Source of the DNA: Saururus chinensis | Taxonomy: Eukaryota > Streptophyta > Magnoliopsida > Piperales > Saururaceae | Assembly: GCA_035235625.1 (NCBI GenBank) | Contig: CP141146.1 | Location: forward strand, 18,532,501-18,596,500 | Length of the DNA: 64,000 bases | Reading direction: 5' to 3' | In this document: in pieces, positions 1-46,165 of the stretch | Position numbering within the stretch: the stretch's first letter is position 1 | How the letters are laid out: every line of letters begins with the position of its first letter | Notes under the pieces: generated by a model | Seen by the model: the letters and a program-made list of their open reading frames with translations, nothing else | Told to the model about the DNA's origin: nothing | The model's database searches: none | Translations under genes and position numbers: made by a program

Positions 1-975
1 ATGCACAAACACTTCAAAGCACATAGAGATCTAGCTACAGCAAAAGCCAATCCATATGATACTATTACCTCAGACAAATGGGAGAAAATTTGTGATAGGT
101 TTGCATCTAAGGAGTTTGAGGTATGGAGTATGATTATGTGCATATTTTTCTTGTTTATTTTGCTAATATGATGTTACATTATTCTTAGCACGAGTTTAAC
201 TTTCAATGTAGGATATTAGTTCTGCAGCTAAGAAGAACCGTCAGGAATTGAAAATCCGACATACTGGAGGTTCAAAACCATTTGTTTGTTACTTGGAGGA
301 GCTGGTAATATTTCCAACGTCTTAGTTTTATTTATGGGCTACACTTACATTTTTTTGTTGTACCTATTTTTTGAATTACCCTTGAATGATACAGCGTAAG
401 CGGAATGAGAATGAGGATAATCAATTTAGTATGATTGATTTTTACAAAGAAACCCACTTCTCAAGAAAAAAAGGTGATTGGATAAGCAATGAGGCTCATG
501 ATTTGCATGTAAGACTTAGTTATTGATTAGTTTGTATGTATTGATATCATAGCTTTAATTGTTTACATTTTTTAGTGACTTCATTAGACATTTATAATTG
601 CAGAATAAAATGATTAAAGCTCGCGATGATCCATCAAGTTCAGACGAGTGGGCACAAGGACTAACTGAAGACCAGATAGCATTTCAGATTATAGGGGAAC
701 GAAAGAATTATGCGCGTGGTCTTGGAAAAGGTGAGGTGGCCCTAGTGTCTTCATCAAGACAAGAGTTGTCTTCGCAGCTTAAAAATTCTACTCAGAGAGC
801 CGAAATGGCAGAAAGGTCAGCTTCTGAAGCGCGTGCGATGATTGAAGAATATAAAGAACGTCTTGAACAACAACAAAGTCAAATTCAGGAACAACAAACT
901 CAAATTCAGGAACAACAAACTCAAATTGACATGCTTATGGAATTCATGAGGGAGCAACGATGCAAGCGTCGCTAA
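1..975 (+). CDS. CACTA transposase-associated protein (Transposase_24 type), 3' exons
   Basis: Four exons with GT-AG borders read in one frame: 1-120, 212-304, 395-508 and 604-975 (stop at 973-975), giving about 232 residues. An upstream start outside the window is possible, so the gene is marked partial. The order of signatures matches the plant Ptta/En/Spm Transposase_24 family: a segment with DKWEKICDRFASKEFE, then AAKKNRQELKIRHTGGSKPF, then a linker and a glutamine-rich coiled coil. The last exon has three near-identical copies of QQQTQIQE-like heptads at codons for about residues 190-215. Such proteins are thought to act with the CACTA transposase at the subterminal repeats. No stop interrupts the reading frame, so the exons could still be expressed. 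Confidence 0.85.
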
Positions 976-1459: not shown

Positions 1460-1550
1460 GAAAACAACCCATTGAGGCAGTCTTTTACAACTCTAAAATG
1501 CACACAGGAAGGACTGACCACTCATGCAGTTCCCCAATCATCCTCTTGTG
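1460..1550 (+). pseudogene. exon-like segment of unknown origin within CACTA 1
   Basis: A 91-bp open segment is bounded by a good acceptor (TGCTTGCAG, ending 1459) and a good donor (GTAGGT at 1551). It reads ENNPLRQSFTTLKCTQEG and continues to a cysteine before the donor. I do not recognise the family. Its position just before the captured nucleotidylyltransferase exons, with proper splice borders, suggests one more captured exon, either of the same source gene or of another gene. It could also be a chance open stretch of this length. Confidence 0.35.
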
Positions 1551-2004
1551 GTAGGTTCTGTATTGAGTCCTCCCATGGGGTGCTTCTTAAGCTGCAACAA
1601 TATTTGAAGATTTATATTTTATATTTAATTAGATTGCAGATTGCATAAAACTTAATTATATGATTCTTAATATGTATAGAGTCTTTTAAAGTCGATGTGT
1701 ATTCAACTCAAAACAGAGATGAAGCCTGTTATTTGCTTCTTACATTACCTAATTGGTACTTCTGCATGAAGATGGTGCAAAAGAGTGGCAAATGGCTCTG
1801 TAATATACTTATCAGTGGGAAAATTTGAGATATAGTGATATGGATGTTGATAGTCTCCATAAATAGGTCAATATGTATGGTTTAGTAGTACTTGAACTGA
1901 TCATATAATATTTTTATCAAACGTATATTCTAGTTTTGCATGGCATTGTGTTGTTCTGGGACAATATATCAGCAAGGAAACTTGACAGCATTATGATATT
2001 GTAG

Positions 2005-2698
2005 GTATTAGGTTTCCATTGTGATAAAAATCAAGGAGAGTGCCGCTCTAAATTTGCTTGCCATATGGATTGCTTTGCTGAGGAACAGCAATTGCAGCAA
2101 GTTATAGATGGGCAAATTTGCATGAAGATTTACCCATTCTCAGGCGGTATGATGTTGATCTAGATCTTATTGGGAAAAAGAAAAAAAGTTCTCTTCAGGC
2201 ATCAACTATGTTAAACTGGACTTGCAGGAGCAGTTCCGGAAAGAAAGATTATATTATCCGGTTCCTTTAACCCTTTGCATGATGGTCACCTCAAGCTCAT
2301 GGAAGTTGCATCAAGGTATAGTACGTATGAGCTAATACCTATTTTATCAGAATGTTCATGCTTTAGCCTGGCTATGACCATCTACCAATGCGCATCAAGG
2401 TATAGTACGTATGAGCTAATTTACATCAGTGATTGATTTTGAATGTCTTGGAGCTCATATACTTGGTCTAAAAGAAAATGCATAATAGTTAAGGAAGTTC
2501 CCATGTTTTCTCCACATGTTTTGTAACATTGTTTCAATGTCATTCACTTTACCTAGTCTATTTTCTGTTAATGTGTTTTGTAATGCAGTATGTATGATGA
2601 TGGCTTTCTGTGCTTCGAGATATCTGCAGTGAATGCAGACAAACCTCCTTTGACAATAACTCAGATCAAAGATAGAGTCAAACAGTTTGAGGAAGTTG
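2005..2698 (+). pseudogene. captured exons of a plant nucleotidylyltransferase / CinA-like gene
   Basis: Three exons (2005-2146, 2228-2315, 2589-2698) have GT-AG borders and join in phase without a stop. The translation includes QVIDGQICMKIYPFSG, then ILSGSFNPLHDGHLKLMEVA, then CFEISAVNADKPPLTITQIK and DRVKQFEEVG. The second exon carries the SGSFNPLHDGH signature of the HxGH nucleotidylyltransferase superfamily. The flanking text resembles the plant protein that couples a CinA-like domain to a cytidylyl/nicotinate-nucleotide-transferase-like domain. Only a central fragment is present, so no catalytic protein can come from it. The exons lie inside CACTA 1, downstream of its transposase gene and upstream of exons of an unrelated hydrolase, which points to transduplication. 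The preserved frame and splice sites suggest a recent capture. Confidence 0.8.
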
Positions 2699-2819
2699 GT
2701 AAGATGCTTGTTACTTTGTTGTTTGTGTATGATTGTGATTTAAGATGCTACTGCTATTAGTAAAAGTCACCATTAGTATTCTAATAGCGTCGTATGATTG
2801 ATGATTGTGATTTAAGATG

Positions 2820-3029
2820 CATGTAGACATAGATACACCAATTGGTACAGTGGCCTCCCGGGCAGGCCCCATAATGGCTGGCTGTGGCTTCTTTGAATCC
2901 GTAATTAGGGGCAAGGGTGGCCATGCAGCTATCCCGCAGCACAGCATTGATCCAATTTTGGCAGCATCAAATGTCATTGTCAGTTTGCAGCATCTTGTTT
3001 CACGTGAAGCTGATCCATTAGACTCACAG
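2820..3029 (+). pseudogene. captured exon of an IAA-amino-acid hydrolase (ILR1/ILL-like, M20 family)
   Basis: One open exon-like block ends at a donor (CAG|GTAATA at 3030). It reads [20 protein letters not shown], then [20 protein letters not shown] and [12 protein letters not shown]. These are hallmarks of plant IAA-amino-acid hydrolases (ILR1/ILL, peptidase M20D), from the end of the catalytic domain into the dimerisation domain: the xSRPGPxLAG segment and the GKGGHAAxPH loop, where the usual histidine after the proline is Q here. The family normally has over 400 residues, so this is about one sixth of a gene. The intact family frees auxin from amino-acid conjugates, but this fragment lacks most metal ligands. 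No clean acceptor is seen on the left. A short direct repeat, TGATTGTGATTTAAGATGC, lies at about 2730 and 2800, just at the junction with the preceding captured gene. Confidence 0.85.
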
Positions 3030-3133
3030 GTAATACTTTGTTGTTTGTGTATTTTTACAAGAAAGCGGAACTTTTTCCTGGGAGTGTGTTTGTCATTGGC
3101 GCTGACACTACTGCTGCTTATTCTTGACTCAAG

Positions 3134-4232
3134 TGATGGAAGAACAAGTCATCATGAAGTTGCCTCTAAGATTGCAACAAAAATGGCTGAGAGCTCGGTG
3201 CAAGATGAAAATCCAGTTTCTCTTTATGTCTATGGGGTACAATTTATTCCTCCCTCCATCATAATGAGAAGTGTATTTAAAAAAAAATTATTTAATGCTA
3301 GATGATGTCCCTAAACAAAGAGAAGAAGATTACAGAACCAAACTGGTAGCATTGGTTCATACTCAACTGCCACTTCAGTCCTTATGTTCTTGCAAAATCT
3401 GGATATTGGGGACCAGTTTCAAGGCATTACCATCAATGAGCCTGTTGATGGTAAAATTCGAGATTTTTTTTTGGGTATTTGTCTCTTACTGTAGATTTAA
3501 TACTCTTGTATAAATCTCAGTGCCTACTCACGCTCTCTCTCTCTCTCTCATTTTTTCTGTGCACTTGTCTTGGATGCTTTAAACATTTTGTTTTCTTCTT
3601 TTGTTGTTTTGGTACAAATGTGATTGCGAGTGGGACACCCTTTGGCTAATTGTCTGGGTAATTGATTGATTTGTCATATGCTGATTTTCATAGGTGATAA
3701 GATCATAAGAGTGCTGGCATGAAGGGAACATGTCTTTGCCTTTTAATTGTTGGCCTAGAAAACAATTGAAACTTTATTGTTGTTGGGATCAGTCTTGTAG
3801 TATAACCTTATCTGTGAATTTGTGAATTAGAAAATATGTTTGTCTTTAGCTTCCAACTTTAATGCAACTAATGAAGTGAACGAATCTTTAGATTGGAACT
3901 TATAGGTGAGCAGTTATTTTAGATATTGGAGGCCAGTGTGAAGCAAGTGATGATGCAGCTTTGGATCAATGATTAGATAAGATTGACTGATAATATCAGT
4001 GAAGCAGATGGGTTACTTGCCTTACAATCGAAGCTGAAGAAAAATTCAGGCATTCAAGCTGTGGCCAAGTCACGTGACATACCTATATTTGTGACAAAGG
4101 TAATTGATTACTATATGTCTAGGCACCATGCTGTAGTCATTTAAAAATTCTGAAATGCCTTGTATATATACATGCAGACTAGCTCTTTGTTGCAAATCCG
4201 CAAAGCTAACTCACACAGAGCCTTCAGGAAAT
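3134..4232 (+). pseudogene. captured exons resembling SPD1 / Ycf45-like ATPase C-terminal region
   Basis: Three open segments with splice-like borders look like one source gene. They are 3134-3236 ([14 protein letters not shown] before a GT donor), about 3977-4099 (LTDNISEADGLLALQSKLKK, then AVAKSRDIPIFVTK before GTAATT), and 4178-4230 (after CATGCAG; TSSLLQIRKAN). The order LY-YG, then a DxxEADxLLxLxSxxKK segment, then IPIxVxKxxSxxQ, is what I recall of the C-terminal part of the plant SPD1 / algal Ycf45 ATPase family, which acts in plastid development. The assignment is from memory of the family and is tentative. Between the first two segments, 3361-3455 has another open run (YSTATSVLMFLQNLDIGDQF) that I cannot place. 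Stops lie between segments, so this is a fragment, not a working gene. Confidence 0.5.
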
Positions 4233-4257
4233 ATTCTTGTAGTTTATATCAGTCCAG

Positions 4258-4882
4258 GTTCGCTGCCAAAGGGTCTTCACACCCTTGACCTGTCCAGAAA
4301 CAAGAATGCAACCATTTTGGGCCTCAGGGAATTGACAAGATTGCGAATTCTGGACCTGAGCTACAATCGTATCTCTAGAATTGGCCAGGGTAAGCTGCCA
4401 ACCTGGCCATTTCCGAATTATGTTTAACAGATTGCAGACAAACATTTGCGTAAATTATATTGATTTTTTATGCACTTTAACATCTCTTTTAATTGAACTA
4501 GCTATAATAGTTGTGGAATAAAATATTTGGTATGTCCAGAGGGAGATGAAAAAACTTTGAGTGACACTTCCGCTATGTCACACAGGCTTATCAAATTGTA
4601 CTCTCATCAAAGAGCTCTACCTTGCTGGAAACAAGATCAGTGATGTTGAGGGCCTGCACAGGCTGCTGAAGTTGTCGGTTCTTTGAGTTTCAACAAGATA
4701 ACAACAGCCAAAGCCCTTGGACAACTTGTGGCGAATTACAACTCCCTCCTGGCTCTTAATGTACTGGGAAATCCAATACAGGCTAACATTGGTGATGACC
4801 AGCTGAGAAAAACTCTTTCCAAGGAGGAAGAGTTGGGAAGTCTGTCTTCACAAAAGATCTACTCCTCAATAGACCTAGAATG
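4258..4882 (+). pseudogene. captured exons of an SDS22-type leucine-rich-repeat protein
   Basis: Exon 4258-4389 (acceptor ends CCAG, donor GTAAG) and exon 4586 to about 4882 (acceptor CACACAG) encode consecutive LRRs of the SDS22 / dynein-light-chain-1-like plant family. Examples are GLHTLDLSRNKNATILGLRE, RILDLSYNRISRIGQG, LIKELYLAGNKISDVEGLHR and SLLALNVLGNPIQANIGDDQ. The second exon is broken near 4682: where the family has VLDLSFNKI, four bases appear to be missing and the frame shifts into a stop, with the right frame resuming as SFNKITTAKALGQLVANYNS. The piece lies between the other captured exons and the CACTA subterminal array, in the same orientation. The intact family serves as a protein-interaction scaffold. 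This copy cannot encode it without interruption. Confidence 0.8.
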
Positions 4883-5164
4883 AACTCCGGGAAGCTCAAG
4901 CTTAAGACTTATGTGAGTGTCATGAAACTGATCATATACATGTTCATGCTCCCAGCTCAGATGACTCTGATTTGCAGGAAGAAAATTCCTTCAAGGATCC
5001 TAACTTAGTTTTGAATTAAATATGCCATTAATAGGAAAGAACTCAACTTGTATTGCAAGCAGAGATTTTTAATTGTATTCGAGATATGATTGTATGGATA
5101 TAATTAGAAATGAAAAAAGAAATCTTTATTTCTATTTCACATTTTATTATTTTTTTTTTAATTT

Positions 5165-5809
5165 TTTGTTCATTAGCGACGCTTAATAGCGTCGCTATAA
5201 ACTATATTAGCGACGTTCAATGACCGTCGCTATTGGTCCATGCTGATTTTATTCTAATAGTGACGCTCCAAAACTGTCGCTAATACGTCTATTCACGACG
5301 CTTTTCGAGCGTCCCTATTGTCCTATTATTCAATAGCGACTCTTCTAAAATGTCGCTAAAACTTATATTAGCGACGCCTATAGAGCGTCGCTATTGTTCT
5401 ATTTTTTTCATTTTATTCAATCGCGACTCTTATACACTGTCGCTAAAACTTCTATTAGCGACACTCGTCAGAGCGTCGCTACTGTAAATATTTAAAAAAA
5501 AATTAAATGAGCGTCGCTAATACGAATATTATTCGCGACACTAATTCATACCGTCGCTAATAATGTACTTACTAGCGACGCTTTCAGAACCGTCGCTAAT
5601 AAGCAAATGTTAGCGACGGTATTACAAAGCGTCGCTAAAGGTACTATTAGCGACGTTTCTTTTTTTCTGTCGTTAGTAAGTAGTAGCGACTGGTTTATTT
5701 GCGACGCTAATAGCGACGGTAAATAAGCGTCGCAAATAACCTTTAGCGACGTTTTTTCTATCATTAGCGACGCTTGTGAGAGTCGCTAATACCCCTTTTT
5801 CTTGTAGTG
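5165..5809. repeat. CACTA 1 subterminal array of TTAGCGACGCT motifs and right terminus
   Basis: About 640 bp are packed with the 11-mer TTAGCGACGCT and variants, alternating with its inverse AGCGTCGCTAA. Neighbouring opposite copies form inverted pairs separated by short loops, for example around 5205-5235 and 5365-5395. The array ends in AATACCCCTTTTTCTTGTAGTG at the transposon terminus. In En/Spm elements such subterminal motifs are the binding sites of the TNPA-like protein, so they are the likely target of the protein encoded at 1-975. Confidence 0.85.
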
Positions 5810-6389
5810 TTGTTCACTTAAAGCTGGGATCATGTTTTTTTTAGCTTCGCTATGTTAGTTTCTTCCTAGCTATTTTGAGTACTTTAAAGCATAGTTAACA
5901 TATTTCTCTCTTTTCTTGATTAAATAGGAGGCTTAGAAACCAAGATGTATTTTACTTGAAGCCTAATTTTTTATCTCGTGTTTTCTACTGTCCTTATGTT
6001 TTTTTTAGTTCTACAACACTGTAAATTTTGGGGGCATGTCAATCAATTTTTCTAAACCTCAAGGCTTACTCGGTTTTGTTTTTTATTTGTTATATCTTAA
6101 GATGACAAGAATAACACCTGTTCCACCATAATACTAAATAATTTAGAGAGCAATGACTTAAAACGTTATGCATCTATCTGGTTGTGGCATTGGGTCGGTG
6201 ATGTTAATATGTTCATACTGCTACCATGATTCCTCTGCACATGCTCTGCCACTATGCTCCTTATGAGACCTCTCCAATTTCTTCATTCCCACAACCTCTT
6301 CACTTTTCTTTCTTGTCTCCTTACAATATTTTCCTTCCCTGATCAAAGAGAGAAGATGCTATAATTGGACTATATTTTGTGGACTTGTA
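5810..6389. other. AT-rich sequence without recognisable features
   Basis: I see no coding similarity, terminal repeats or tandem structure here. The stretch is the right flank of CACTA 1. Confidence 0.5.
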
Positions 6390-26154: not shown

Positions 26155-27237
26155 CTAGTCACTATCATCCGCATCTGCCGAAGCTGATTGGCTACGAATC
26201 AAATCAGTCAGTCCCTGTATAAGTCCCCTCATCTCAGTCATCTGAGCATCTATATGTGCAGTAAACCTCGTCTGAAGTTGTGCCTGAGAAGAATCAATGT
26301 GTGCTCTAAGACGATGCTCCATCTCAAGGAAAGAGTCATTAGCACGTGTTGGAATGTGCTGCTCAGCTGCAACCTCTGGTACACCCTCTGTGGCTGGCTC
26401 CTCCTCGTTCTCCTCGTCTAATGCTGGTGGAGGAGGACAATGTGTGATCATACGGTTTAGGGTTGCCTGAGAAATGGCCCCTAAACCGCGTCTCGTGGGT
26501 GCGTATGAAGGAAAATCCAACTGAAAGTGAAAAAAAATCCGCTCCAAAAGGAAAGGAAAAGCTAATCTAGCATCCACTAGTCCAGAGACTATATTTGCCA
26601 TCCGTGCGAAGACAAAGGAGGGAAAATCAATGTGAATCCGCTCTGCACAGCCCAGAACATAAAGAAGGCGAGCTAAGGTGTAGTCAACCTTCTCATGACG
26701 GCGGAACCATATGTCATACTCCAATATCAGATGGGCAAAACGATAGTCCCGAGTCATGAGAGAAGCTGACAATCTATATGTGAGGGATGGGCCTTGCTCC
26801 TGCCCTATAATAGTTCCCATGATAGTATACTCATCGGGAAAAGCAAAGTCATCAAAAGATGGATAGGTGAAGTTGGAGCGCGTGAGACCCATCACTGTAG
26901 CTATGAGATCTGGTGTGATAGTGATCATAATATCTCCAATGGTGCTGACAATATATCCCCTCTCATTAAGAAAAGCGGTTGCATAGAAAAATCGGACCTG
27001 TTCATGATGTACATGAGTGTCAGGGGCTGCAATCTCTGAGAAAAAGGAGCACCAATCATCTTGCTCCATAAGCCATGACTAGGCAGCAGTAATGGTGGGG
27101 ACAAACTCCACCTGTCGCTCATAAACAATAGCACGACGAGGTCGATCAGCAGTAGCGGTAGTAGAAGATGAAGCATGCGAAGTAGAGGGGGCGCCCTTCC
27201 TCTTCTTCGGAGCTTTAGAACGAGAACCATGTGCCAT
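26155..27237 (-). CDS. Gypsy-kin element ORF, putative plant transposon protein (Transposase_32-like)
   Basis: The long open part (27069 back to 26155, 304 codons) resembles the putative plant transposon protein domain found as an extra ORF in TAT-like Gypsy elements and their non-autonomous kin. Landmarks in order are LNERGYIVSTIGDIMITITP, RFAHLILEYDIWFRRHEKVD, ARLLYVLGCAERIHIDFPSF and, toward the C terminus, a glutamate-rich linker, then MEHRLRAHIDSSQAQLQTRF, a likely short coiled coil. A basic, serine-rich coding stretch (KAPKKRKGAP) lies just upstream, up to 27237. The biochemical role of this protein is not established. The related copy at 17825 shares the central part. This belongs to a fossil element and should not be read as a host gene. 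Confidence 0.7.
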
Positions 27238-44551: not shown

Positions 44552-46165
44552 TTTTCCCCTCTCTACACTCACTACCCTCTCTCTCCTACTTTCTATCTCA
44601 TCTCTCTCTCCTCAACTTCTCTCTTGACACTCTCTACCCTCTCTCTCCTCACCTTCTCTCTCTACCCTTTCTCTCTCTCCTCTTTCTACCCTCTCTCTCT
44701 CCTCTTCTCTCTCTCTCTCCGTTCTCTCTCTACCCTCTCTTCTCTCTCTCCATCTCCTCTCTCTCTCCTCTCTTCTCTCTCTCACTCTCTCTTTCCTCTC
44801 TCTCCCCTCTCTCTCTCCTCTCTCCCTCTCCTCTCTCCTCTCTCTCCCTCTCCTCCCTCTCCTCTCTCTCTCCCTCTCCTCTCTCCTCTATCTCCTCTCT
44901 CTCCTTTAATTTCAAGTTTTTTATAATTTTTTATTTTTAAAAAAGAATTTTAAAAATAAATAAATAAATAAAATACTATTGGTGACGTATATGTCTATAC
45001 GTCGCTAATACCTTTCCTATTAGCGACGTATAAGGCTATATGTCGCTAATACCTTTCCTCTCTCTCCTTTTCCTCTCTTTCCCTCTCCTCTCTCTCCTTT
45101 TCCTCTCTTTCCCTCTCTCTCCTCTCTCGCCTCTCTCTATCTCTCTCCTCTTGCTCTCTCCGTCTTATTCCTCTCTCTCTCTCTCTTCCCTCTTCTCCTC
45201 TCTCTCTCTCCCTTCTCTCTCTCCTCTCTCCCCCTCTCTCCCCTTTCTCTCTTCCCTACCCACTCTCTTTCTCTTCCCTCTCCTCTCTCCCTACACACTA
45301 TCTCTCTAATTTTAATTTTTTAAGATTTTTTTTTAAAATTAATTTGAAAAAATAAAAAAAGAATTAAAAGAAATTATATTAGCGACGTATCAAATTATAC
45401 ATCGCTAATACGTGACGTATTAGCAACATATACTTTTATATGTTCCTAATACATGTACTAATAGTGACGTATAAAAATATACGTCGCTATTAGTATTTTA
45501 ATTTTATTATTTTATTTTAAAAATAAAAAAATTTAAAAAATCAAAATAAAATTCCTCTCTCTTCCCTCCCCTCTCTCTATCTCTCCCTCTCCTCTCTCTA
45601 TCTCTCTCCTCTTCCTCTCTCTGTCTTATTCCTCTCTCTCTTCCCTCCCCTATCTCTCTTCCCTCTCCTCTCTCTCTCTCTTCCCTCTTCTCTCTCTCTC
45701 TCTCCTCTCTCTCTTCCCTCTCTTCTCTCCCTACACACTATCTCTCCTCTAATTTCAATTTTTTAAGATTTTTTATTCTTTAAAATTAATTTTAAAAAAT
45801 AAAAAAAGAATTAAAAGAAATCATATTAGCAACGTATAAAATTATACGTTGCTAATATGTCACGTATTAGCGACGTATACTTTTATATGTCGCTAATACA
45901 TGTCCAAATAGCGACGTAGAAAAGTATACATCGCTATTAGTATTTATTTTTATTTTATTATTTTATTTTAAAAATATAAAAAAATCAAAATAAAATTCAT
46001 CTATCTCTTCCCTCCCCTCTCTCTTTATCCCTCTCCTCTCTCTATCTCTCTCCTCTTCCTCTCTTCGTCTTATTCCTCTCTCTCTCATCCCTCTCTCTCT
46101 CTCCTCCCTCTCTCTCTCCCTCCTCACCTTCTCTCTCTCTCCATGCACTCTCTTCACTCTCTCTT
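44552..46165. repeat. CT-rich tracts alternating with GCGACGTAT motif clusters, about 450-bp modules
   Basis: Four pyrimidine tracts (about 44552-44905, 45050-45305, 45553-45745 and 45998-46165) alternate with clusters of GCGACGTATA...TATACGTCGC. The phrase GTCTTATTCCTCTCTCTC occurs at 45162, 45623 and 46067, giving a repeat period of about 450-460 bp. CTACACACTATCTCTC and TTTTAAGATTTTTT also recur once per module. The inner part of the transposon therefore grew by tandem duplication. Confidence 0.8.

Follow-up and report, generated by a model that had tools for sequence, protein, structure and literature searches.

The first 5.8 kb of the 64,000-nucleotide stretch of the Saururus chinensis genome analysed here (the window, C7:18532501-18596500) are the right-hand part of a CACTA transposon, which carries pieces of at least five unrelated host genes, all in sense orientation and with their introns kept. 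The five genes are those of DNA polymerase epsilon, a nucleotidylyltransferase, an ILR1-type amidohydrolase, an SPD1-like protein and an SDS22-like LRR protein. We consider it probable that this cargo was assembled by stepwise, DNA-templated patching of breaks inside the element, followed by transposition. This reading is supported by the source loci of the pieces, the further copies of the capture, the element ends and their target-site duplications, an empty site for the LRR piece, the nesting of pieces, short bits copied twice and an excess of microhomology at the junctions. A first-pass annotation of this DNA had proposed a CACTA element with exons gathered from at least four unrelated genes; that view is upheld and extended to five, the polymerase epsilon piece (1753-2078) having been overlooked.

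The element, its cargo and the source genes

The assembly searched comprises 516,460,831 bases in 11 contigs. The whole element spans C7:18522645-18538309 (15,665 bp), so that approximately 9.9 kb of it lie left of the window start. Its left terminus, CACTACAACAAATA, is found at C7:18522645 and its right terminus, TTCTTGTAGTG, at window position 5809 (C7:18538309). These ends form CACTA terminal inverted repeats (5' end CACTACAACAAATA; reverse complement of the 3' end CACTACAAGAAAAA), and a 3-bp target-site duplication, TTG, stands directly outside both of them (5810-5812, with its partner directly left of C7:18522645). Subterminal repeat arrays are found at both ends; the 3' array, together with its terminal inverted repeat, occupies 5164-5809 (+ strand). 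Pfam searches left of the window revealed Tnp2-type transposase open reading frames (ORFs), with matches to Transposase_21 (PF02992, E 3.5e-102) and Transpos_assoc (PF13963, E 2e-21), and equally clear DUF4218 and DUF4216 ORFs. By its termini, 3-bp duplication, subterminal arrays and Tnp2-type ORFs the element belongs to the CACTA (En/Spm) superfamily. The transposase frame changes between the first two ORFs, near L009:6078, so that the predicted enzyme may not be intact. Positions 1-972 (+) hold the last exons of a CACTA accessory-protein (TnpA-like) gene that extends left of the window. The first-pass annotation had placed the captured pieces between a Transposase_24 gene and the 3' subterminal array. 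The placement between transposase genes and array stands, but the Transposase_24 label is weak, since PF03004 scores 9.4 bits on one TnpA-like exon against a cut-off of 28.7.

All of the cargo reads on the + strand, and alignments to the sources confirm both the common orientation and the retention of introns and many splice sites that had been read from the letters alone. From left to right, a DNA polymerase epsilon fragment (1753-2078) aligns to a locus on C10 in blocks of 93.9, 92.3 and 97.7% identity; the fetched C10 sequence starts at the equivalent of window 1773, the edge of the fetch, and the genome search carries the match to 1753. The first block of a CinA-like nucleotidylyltransferase fragment follows (2074-2395, 97.2% to C4:11.29 Mb), fused in frame with the polymerase exon. 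A 29-bp patch of the same gene is then copied again (2392-2420, first copy 2308-2336) before the second block (2417-2750, 98.8%). A short filler (2751-2800), 16 bp of which weakly resemble the element's own subterminal repeat, leads to a re-copied 20-bp nucleotidylyltransferase patch (2801-2820, first copy 2729-2748) and to the ILR1-type piece (2820-3046), which corresponds to the M20 dimerisation part and is 96.9% identical to C4:9.14 Mb. The nucleotidylyltransferase then resumes (3034-3114), with a re-copied 19-bp patch (first copy 2712-2730) and 65 bp of a later exon (3050-3114, 98.5%). An SPD1/Ycf45-like fragment with introns (3119-4208; 93.4 and 96.1% to C6:20.87 Mb) is separated by older CACTA-family sequence (4209-4233) from the SDS22-like LRR fragment (4234-4821, 95.1% to C1:18.80 Mb), which also keeps introns and whose frame is broken by a 4-bp deletion. 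Older CACTA-family sequence shared with sibling elements continues to its right (4822-5145).

The nucleotidylyltransferase piece had been thought to begin at 1460, but it begins at 2074. We rejected nucleotidylyltransferase exons in 1460-2073, as 1395-2073 is sequence repeated in CACTA siblings, of which the last part is the polymerase piece. The remainder (1395-1752, +) is CACTA-family sequence common to many siblings. Within it, parts of 1457-1665 (1457-1603 and 1610-1665) match paired loci on C8 (34.28 and 34.29 Mb) and C11 (1.59 and 1.78 Mb) at approximately 82-87%, and this segment is perhaps an older captured gene piece; the C8 relative gave no Pfam match.

The aligned cargo blocks, of 39-791 bp, match host loci of the same genome at 92-99% identity by BLAST, a degree of likeness over such lengths that excludes chance. 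The sources of all five named pieces lie at five separate loci (on C10, C4, C4, C6 and C1) and the pieces themselves between CACTA ends; among the matches scored, neither of the two findings that would have overturned the first-pass view came up. At C10 (~31.05 Mb) the polymerase gene continues upstream. At C4:11.29 Mb our reading of the translations places exon-like frames on both sides of the captured part. In the ILR1 source, M20 matches span the captured exon and also lie on either side of it, running from C4:9142253 to C4:9136242, and the last two of these stretches contain stops in a six-frame read-through, as introns would give. The LRR source has an uninterrupted last exon with LRR matches and consistent preceding exons, and the SPD1-like source on C6 appears to extend beyond the captured part on both sides. 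A combined query of TnpA-like exons and 3' array had no match in any of the five source loci.

Gene names differ in their basis. Pfam supports those of the nucleotidylyltransferase (PF01467), ILR1 (M20) and LRR pieces, while the labels ILR1-type, SDS22-type and SPD1/Ycf45 come from the first-pass annotation. The polymerase is named from exonuclease-domain matches at the source and in siblings, together with resemblance to the polymerase epsilon protein sequence. For the 3119-4208 piece, which has no Pfam match, the SPD1/Ycf45 name is provisional.

Two initial placements were discarded. L043 (C10:31.05 Mb) had been a candidate sibling element; no element end was found there and DNA_pol_B_exo1 matches lie just upstream, and we treat it as the polymerase source gene. 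L031 (C10:2.70 Mb) was rejected as LRR source, being itself a rearranged chimera, in favour of C1:18.80 Mb with its uninterrupted last exon. L031 (C10:2702501-2705500) is thus a second chimera, in which a piece of this LRR gene has been rearranged and duplicated in part, and the stretches beside that piece presumably resemble a Ulp1-type protease and a 2-oxoglutarate dehydrogenase exon. In addition, ~127 bp of the LRR piece (4485-4611) recur at 95-96% at eight loci (on C1, C2, C4, C5, C7 and C8, and two on C11), none of the listed matches being longer; a second repeat family may thus have picked up this gene.

The search for other CACTA copies with the same set of pieces, an idea already contained in the first-pass annotation, retrieved the entire capture at two more places, C7:15530704 and C11:18213027, 99.8 and 99.2% identical to the window over 2000-4883. 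These two further copies carry target-site duplications of their own (GAG and TAT). Both (L010/L011 and L012/L013) are shorter than the window element, being without ~6.7 and 7.3 kb, respectively, that include the transposase core. Matching 3-bp duplications were present in all five elements with both ends in hand (TTG, GAG, TAT, GAG and AGA). Because the three separate copies have different flanks, an assembly artefact is very unlikely to be the origin of the capture. Among the 40 of 69 candidates that were scored, runs of several pieces occurred only in apparent element copies. The family is large: a first look gave 280 candidates when the 5' end was searched and 109 with the Transposase_21 stretch, 40 of each being scored.

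Insertion history and junctions

Sibling elements carry different cargo and are shuffled versions of one another, which makes part of the history legible. The clearest case is the LRR piece. Its site is still empty in sibling L020, where the older element sequence runs continuously from AGGAAATATTC into CAAGGAGG at all three tandem copies of the motif, and it is precisely at this point that LRR sequence begins in L024, L025, L017, L015 and the window. Of 15 sibling loci searched for the motif, five have it at this site (L015, L017, L020, L024 and L025); it was not seen in the other ten. The insertion measures 588 bp and shares TTC with the site on its left and TTCCA on its right.

The other steps were placed from the content of siblings. 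L024 and L025 have the LRR piece and no match to the SPD1-like source, and L017, an element of 1,977 bp, has a bit of SPD1 plus LRR. The 4-bp loss in the LRR piece is seen in six of nine element copies checked (window, L011, L013, L015, L017 and L026, not L024, L025 or L027), a distribution that fits a single clade comprising L026 and all copies with SPD1 sequence. L015 begins with polymerase and nucleotidylyltransferase, returns to polymerase for 47 bp, and continues with a stretch also present in L024/L025, then SPD1-like and LRR. Since polymerase sequence stands there on both sides of the nucleotidylyltransferase, the latter went into the former. ILR1 was not found in L015, and relative to it the window lineage has lost material and gained ILR1. 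The simplest order puts the polymerase and LRR pieces first, the nucleotidylyltransferase and SPD1-like pieces next and ILR1 last, in either order within each of the first two groups.

Stepwise patching would account for these data as follows. Breaks within the element, downstream of the transposase genes and possibly arising from failed excision or abortive gap repair, would be patched over several steps, each time with a copied stretch of an unrelated host gene: the LRR piece would have entered older CACTA sequence, the nucleotidylyltransferase piece an older polymerase epsilon piece, the SPD1-like piece would have joined beside the LRR piece, and the ILR1 piece would have entered the nucleotidylyltransferase. 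Each patch would be a copy, leaving the source in place and retaining introns. The donor strand would pair through a few matching bases and occasionally slip back, so that the same bases are copied twice. The loaded element would then transpose as a unit, the two copies without the transposase core presumably with transposase supplied in trans.

The junctions offer a way of looking at this pairing. A 29-bp stretch is present twice within the nucleotidylyltransferase piece, and the ILR1 piece, nested within that same piece, is flanked by 20- and 19-bp re-copied bits of one nucleotidylyltransferase stretch. Strict overlaps at the 11 scored junctions (nine in the window and two in L015; negative overlaps of -9 and -16 set to 0) were 0, 0, 4, 1, 2, 3, 0, 3, 5, 1 and 0 nt. 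They add up to 19 nt, whereas joining the same sequences at random gives 7.9 on average and attains 19 in 61 of 20,000 simulations; four junctions of at least 3 nt were reached by 48 of 20,000 random-join runs. At three borders a mismatch adjoins 3-4 shared bases; these borders score zero under strict counting, and the bases are not included. That microhomology exceeds what random joins give moderately favours pairing via short matches.

A different origin, fusion, has been put forward for Pack-CACTA and other Pack-TYPE elements (PMC8903248, PMC13317346, in the portions available): two related CACTA elements land close to each other, lose their facing ends and move as one together with the chromosomal DNA in between. 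As siblings are shuffled versions of one another, fusion or exchange between elements may also occur in this family. Yet with five source loci on four contigs several separate fusions would be required, and the nesting of ILR1 between re-copied patches speaks against it. The LRR step is especially difficult to reconcile with fusion: the LRR piece splits sequence that runs unbroken in L020, and its borders show no element end. We regard fusion as an unlikely origin of the cargo as a whole.

Several points weigh against patching too. No break has been observed as such. Just 5 of the 11 junctions have strict microhomology of at least 2 nt, a level that random joins reach in 534 of 20,000 runs, and two junctions have 9 and 16 bp of filler or mutated sequence. 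At least six junctions lie outside the microhomology test (both filler ends, the 4208/4209 border, and, in L015, the nucleotidylyltransferase-polymerase border with its indel and the two edges of the stretch also present in L024/L025). The order of steps leans on few siblings and ignores exchange between elements, and a search for empty sites found none that would mark the SPD1-like step or that of ILR1. Lastly, break repair alone does not predict that all cargo should be in sense orientation.

Orientation and coding potential of the cargo

Cargo orientation was scored in eight elements of the family (window, L020, L021, L022, L024, L025, L027 and L028, the last without a 3' end found; L043 was not included). 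In hand-chosen cargo regions we scanned all frames of 45 codons or more, pooled by strand, at a Pfam E-value of 1e-3 or better. The 144 sense frames matched 21 Pfam families and the 112 antisense frames matched none. After merging families attributable to one gene, approximately eleven host genes were recognised by Pfam (LRR, receptor kinase, dienelactone hydrolase, prolyl oligopeptidase, polymerase epsilon, DUF7880, tyrosine phosphatase, SHPRH, nucleotidylyltransferase, PUF protein and ILR1), which together with the SPD1-like gene, found by BLAST, makes twelve, all sense. The chance of this, calculated by hand under equal odds and independence, is ~0.0005 (two-sided), with independence strained by the relatedness of the elements, L021, L022, L036 and L038-L040 having most cargo in common. 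The merging of families is our own, and fragments without Pfam domains are invisible to the scan (5 of 10 frames tested singly were matchless). The comparison covers this CACTA family only. We recognised no report of an orientation bias for CACTA in the literature searched, in which subscription journals are thinly covered and papers partly accessible.

One frame among these siblings is long for a captured piece: 246 codons, open in L021:5751-6488 and L022:5158-5895, with S-locus glycoprotein and PAN domains. The domains were located in L021, and in the pooled scan two members gave matches.

If family-wide, all-sense cargo points to a filter or mechanism tied to transcription. One form of such a mechanism, in which spliced transcripts are reverse-transcribed into the element, would explain why all five pieces, and likewise the Pfam-detectable sibling pieces, are sense. 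But introns are kept at ~93-99% identity in the nucleotidylyltransferase, SPD1-like and LRR pieces, and no poly(A) tract was seen at the aligned borders. Retained introns exclude spliced mRNA as the template (the argument applies to spliced mRNA, not to unspliced nascent RNA), and RNA-templated capture is highly improbable overall. As a tentative and doubtful extension, we propose that this family takes up host pieces repeatedly, 3' of its transposase genes and solely in the sense of its own transcription unit, because capture is tied to transcription or splicing, either through copying coupled to transcription or through survival only of cargo that can be spliced from the element transcript. 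Transposase-bearing elements, and not just their defective offspring, might then collect genes steadily, with microhomology guiding the filling of internal breaks in the way suggested for animal Pack-TIRs.

Sense orientation could also reflect selection, the element being retained for a spliced fusion protein or for cargo-derived small RNAs that serve element or host. Window segments 2005-2146, 2228-2315 and 2589-2698 keep their AG and GT borders, and joined they give 113 codons without a stop, leading from polymerase into nucleotidylyltransferase; a chimeric spliced transcript is possible in principle. CACTA cargo can indeed be spliced into chimeric mRNAs, as described for Tgm-Express1 in the text available (PMC1947982), and Pfam-detectable cargo is all sense in the eight elements. 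Against such a role, the LRR frame is broken by the 4-bp loss in most copies checked, the ILR1 piece begins inside its exon and so has no splice acceptor, and recent copies would resemble each other without selection. A selected chimeric gene has a slim chance of being the explanation; with the LRR frame broken and no sign seen of retention for its protein, the cargo is most likely a passenger.

Comparison with other gene-capturing elements

Multi-gene capture by CACTA elements, and gene pieces on CACTA elements with coding sequence, are already established. Captured gene fragments have been described in CACTA elements of grape (PMC2528002), and 140 CACTA capture events on wheat 3B (PMC4290129). 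Tgm-Express1, a soybean CACTA element, carries exons and introns of five unrelated host genes that are spliced into chimeric transcripts (PMC1947982). It is, however, 5.7 kb long, lies within a flower-colour gene intron and has demonstrated transcripts, with no transposase mentioned in the text available, whereas our element has transposase ORFs and is known from DNA alone. The Tpn1 family of Japanese morning glory likewise has captured host genic regions between conserved ends and subterminal repeats, capture being described there in non-autonomous members (PMC5105172), while here it is also found on a copy with Transposase_21 ORFs. The likeness to Tgm-Express1 and Tpn1 meant here is one of behaviour. 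In Chenopodium, CACTA elements with coding sequence also have gene fragments, but 5' of ORF 1 (PMC8978399); here the fragments, which derive from five genes or more, lie 3' of the transposase genes.

Pack-CACTA and other Pack-TYPE elements carry host gene pieces between CACTA ends and spread them by transposition (PMC8903248). The window copy shares with them host gene fragments between terminal repeats with sources elsewhere in the genome (for all five named pieces). Pack-TYPE elements are defined as non-autonomous and lacking transposase, which the Transposase_21 ORFs of the window copy contradict, and their origin is proposed to be tandem insertion and fusion, in contrast to the patch-like insertion with an empty site seen here. 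A pipeline that files each transposase-bearing element as autonomous, as in that study, would miss such copies as gene carriers.

For the patching itself there are parallels outside CACTA. In animal Pack-TIRs, gap filling with microhomology-guided template switching has been proposed (median 2 bp, at least one breakpoint with microhomology in 67.6%); these are other elements in animals, and validity for plant Pack-MULEs was left open in the available text (PMC8277862). The maize element Ds2-22 contains an intron and exons that were copied from an ILR1-like gene on a different chromosome, and break-repair errors were suggested (PMC3260210), but it is of the hAT superfamily and has one source gene. 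We recognised no report of template switching or filler for CACTA in the same thinly covered literature. Gene acquisition by CACTA is now argued mainly from the fusion of neighbouring elements. What is less usual here, in a plant, is the all-sense cargo and the readable history: a single family shows sources, nested patches, re-copied bits and an empty site together, which makes break-repair copying testable junction by junction.

Two further features were noted in the rest of the window. Long CT-rich, low-complexity tandem arrays, including one of 447-bp period repeated ~2.3 times, occupy 44577-46162. On the - strand, 26155-27078 is a 307-codon open frame, the longest of four of at least 170 codons in 6000-64000.

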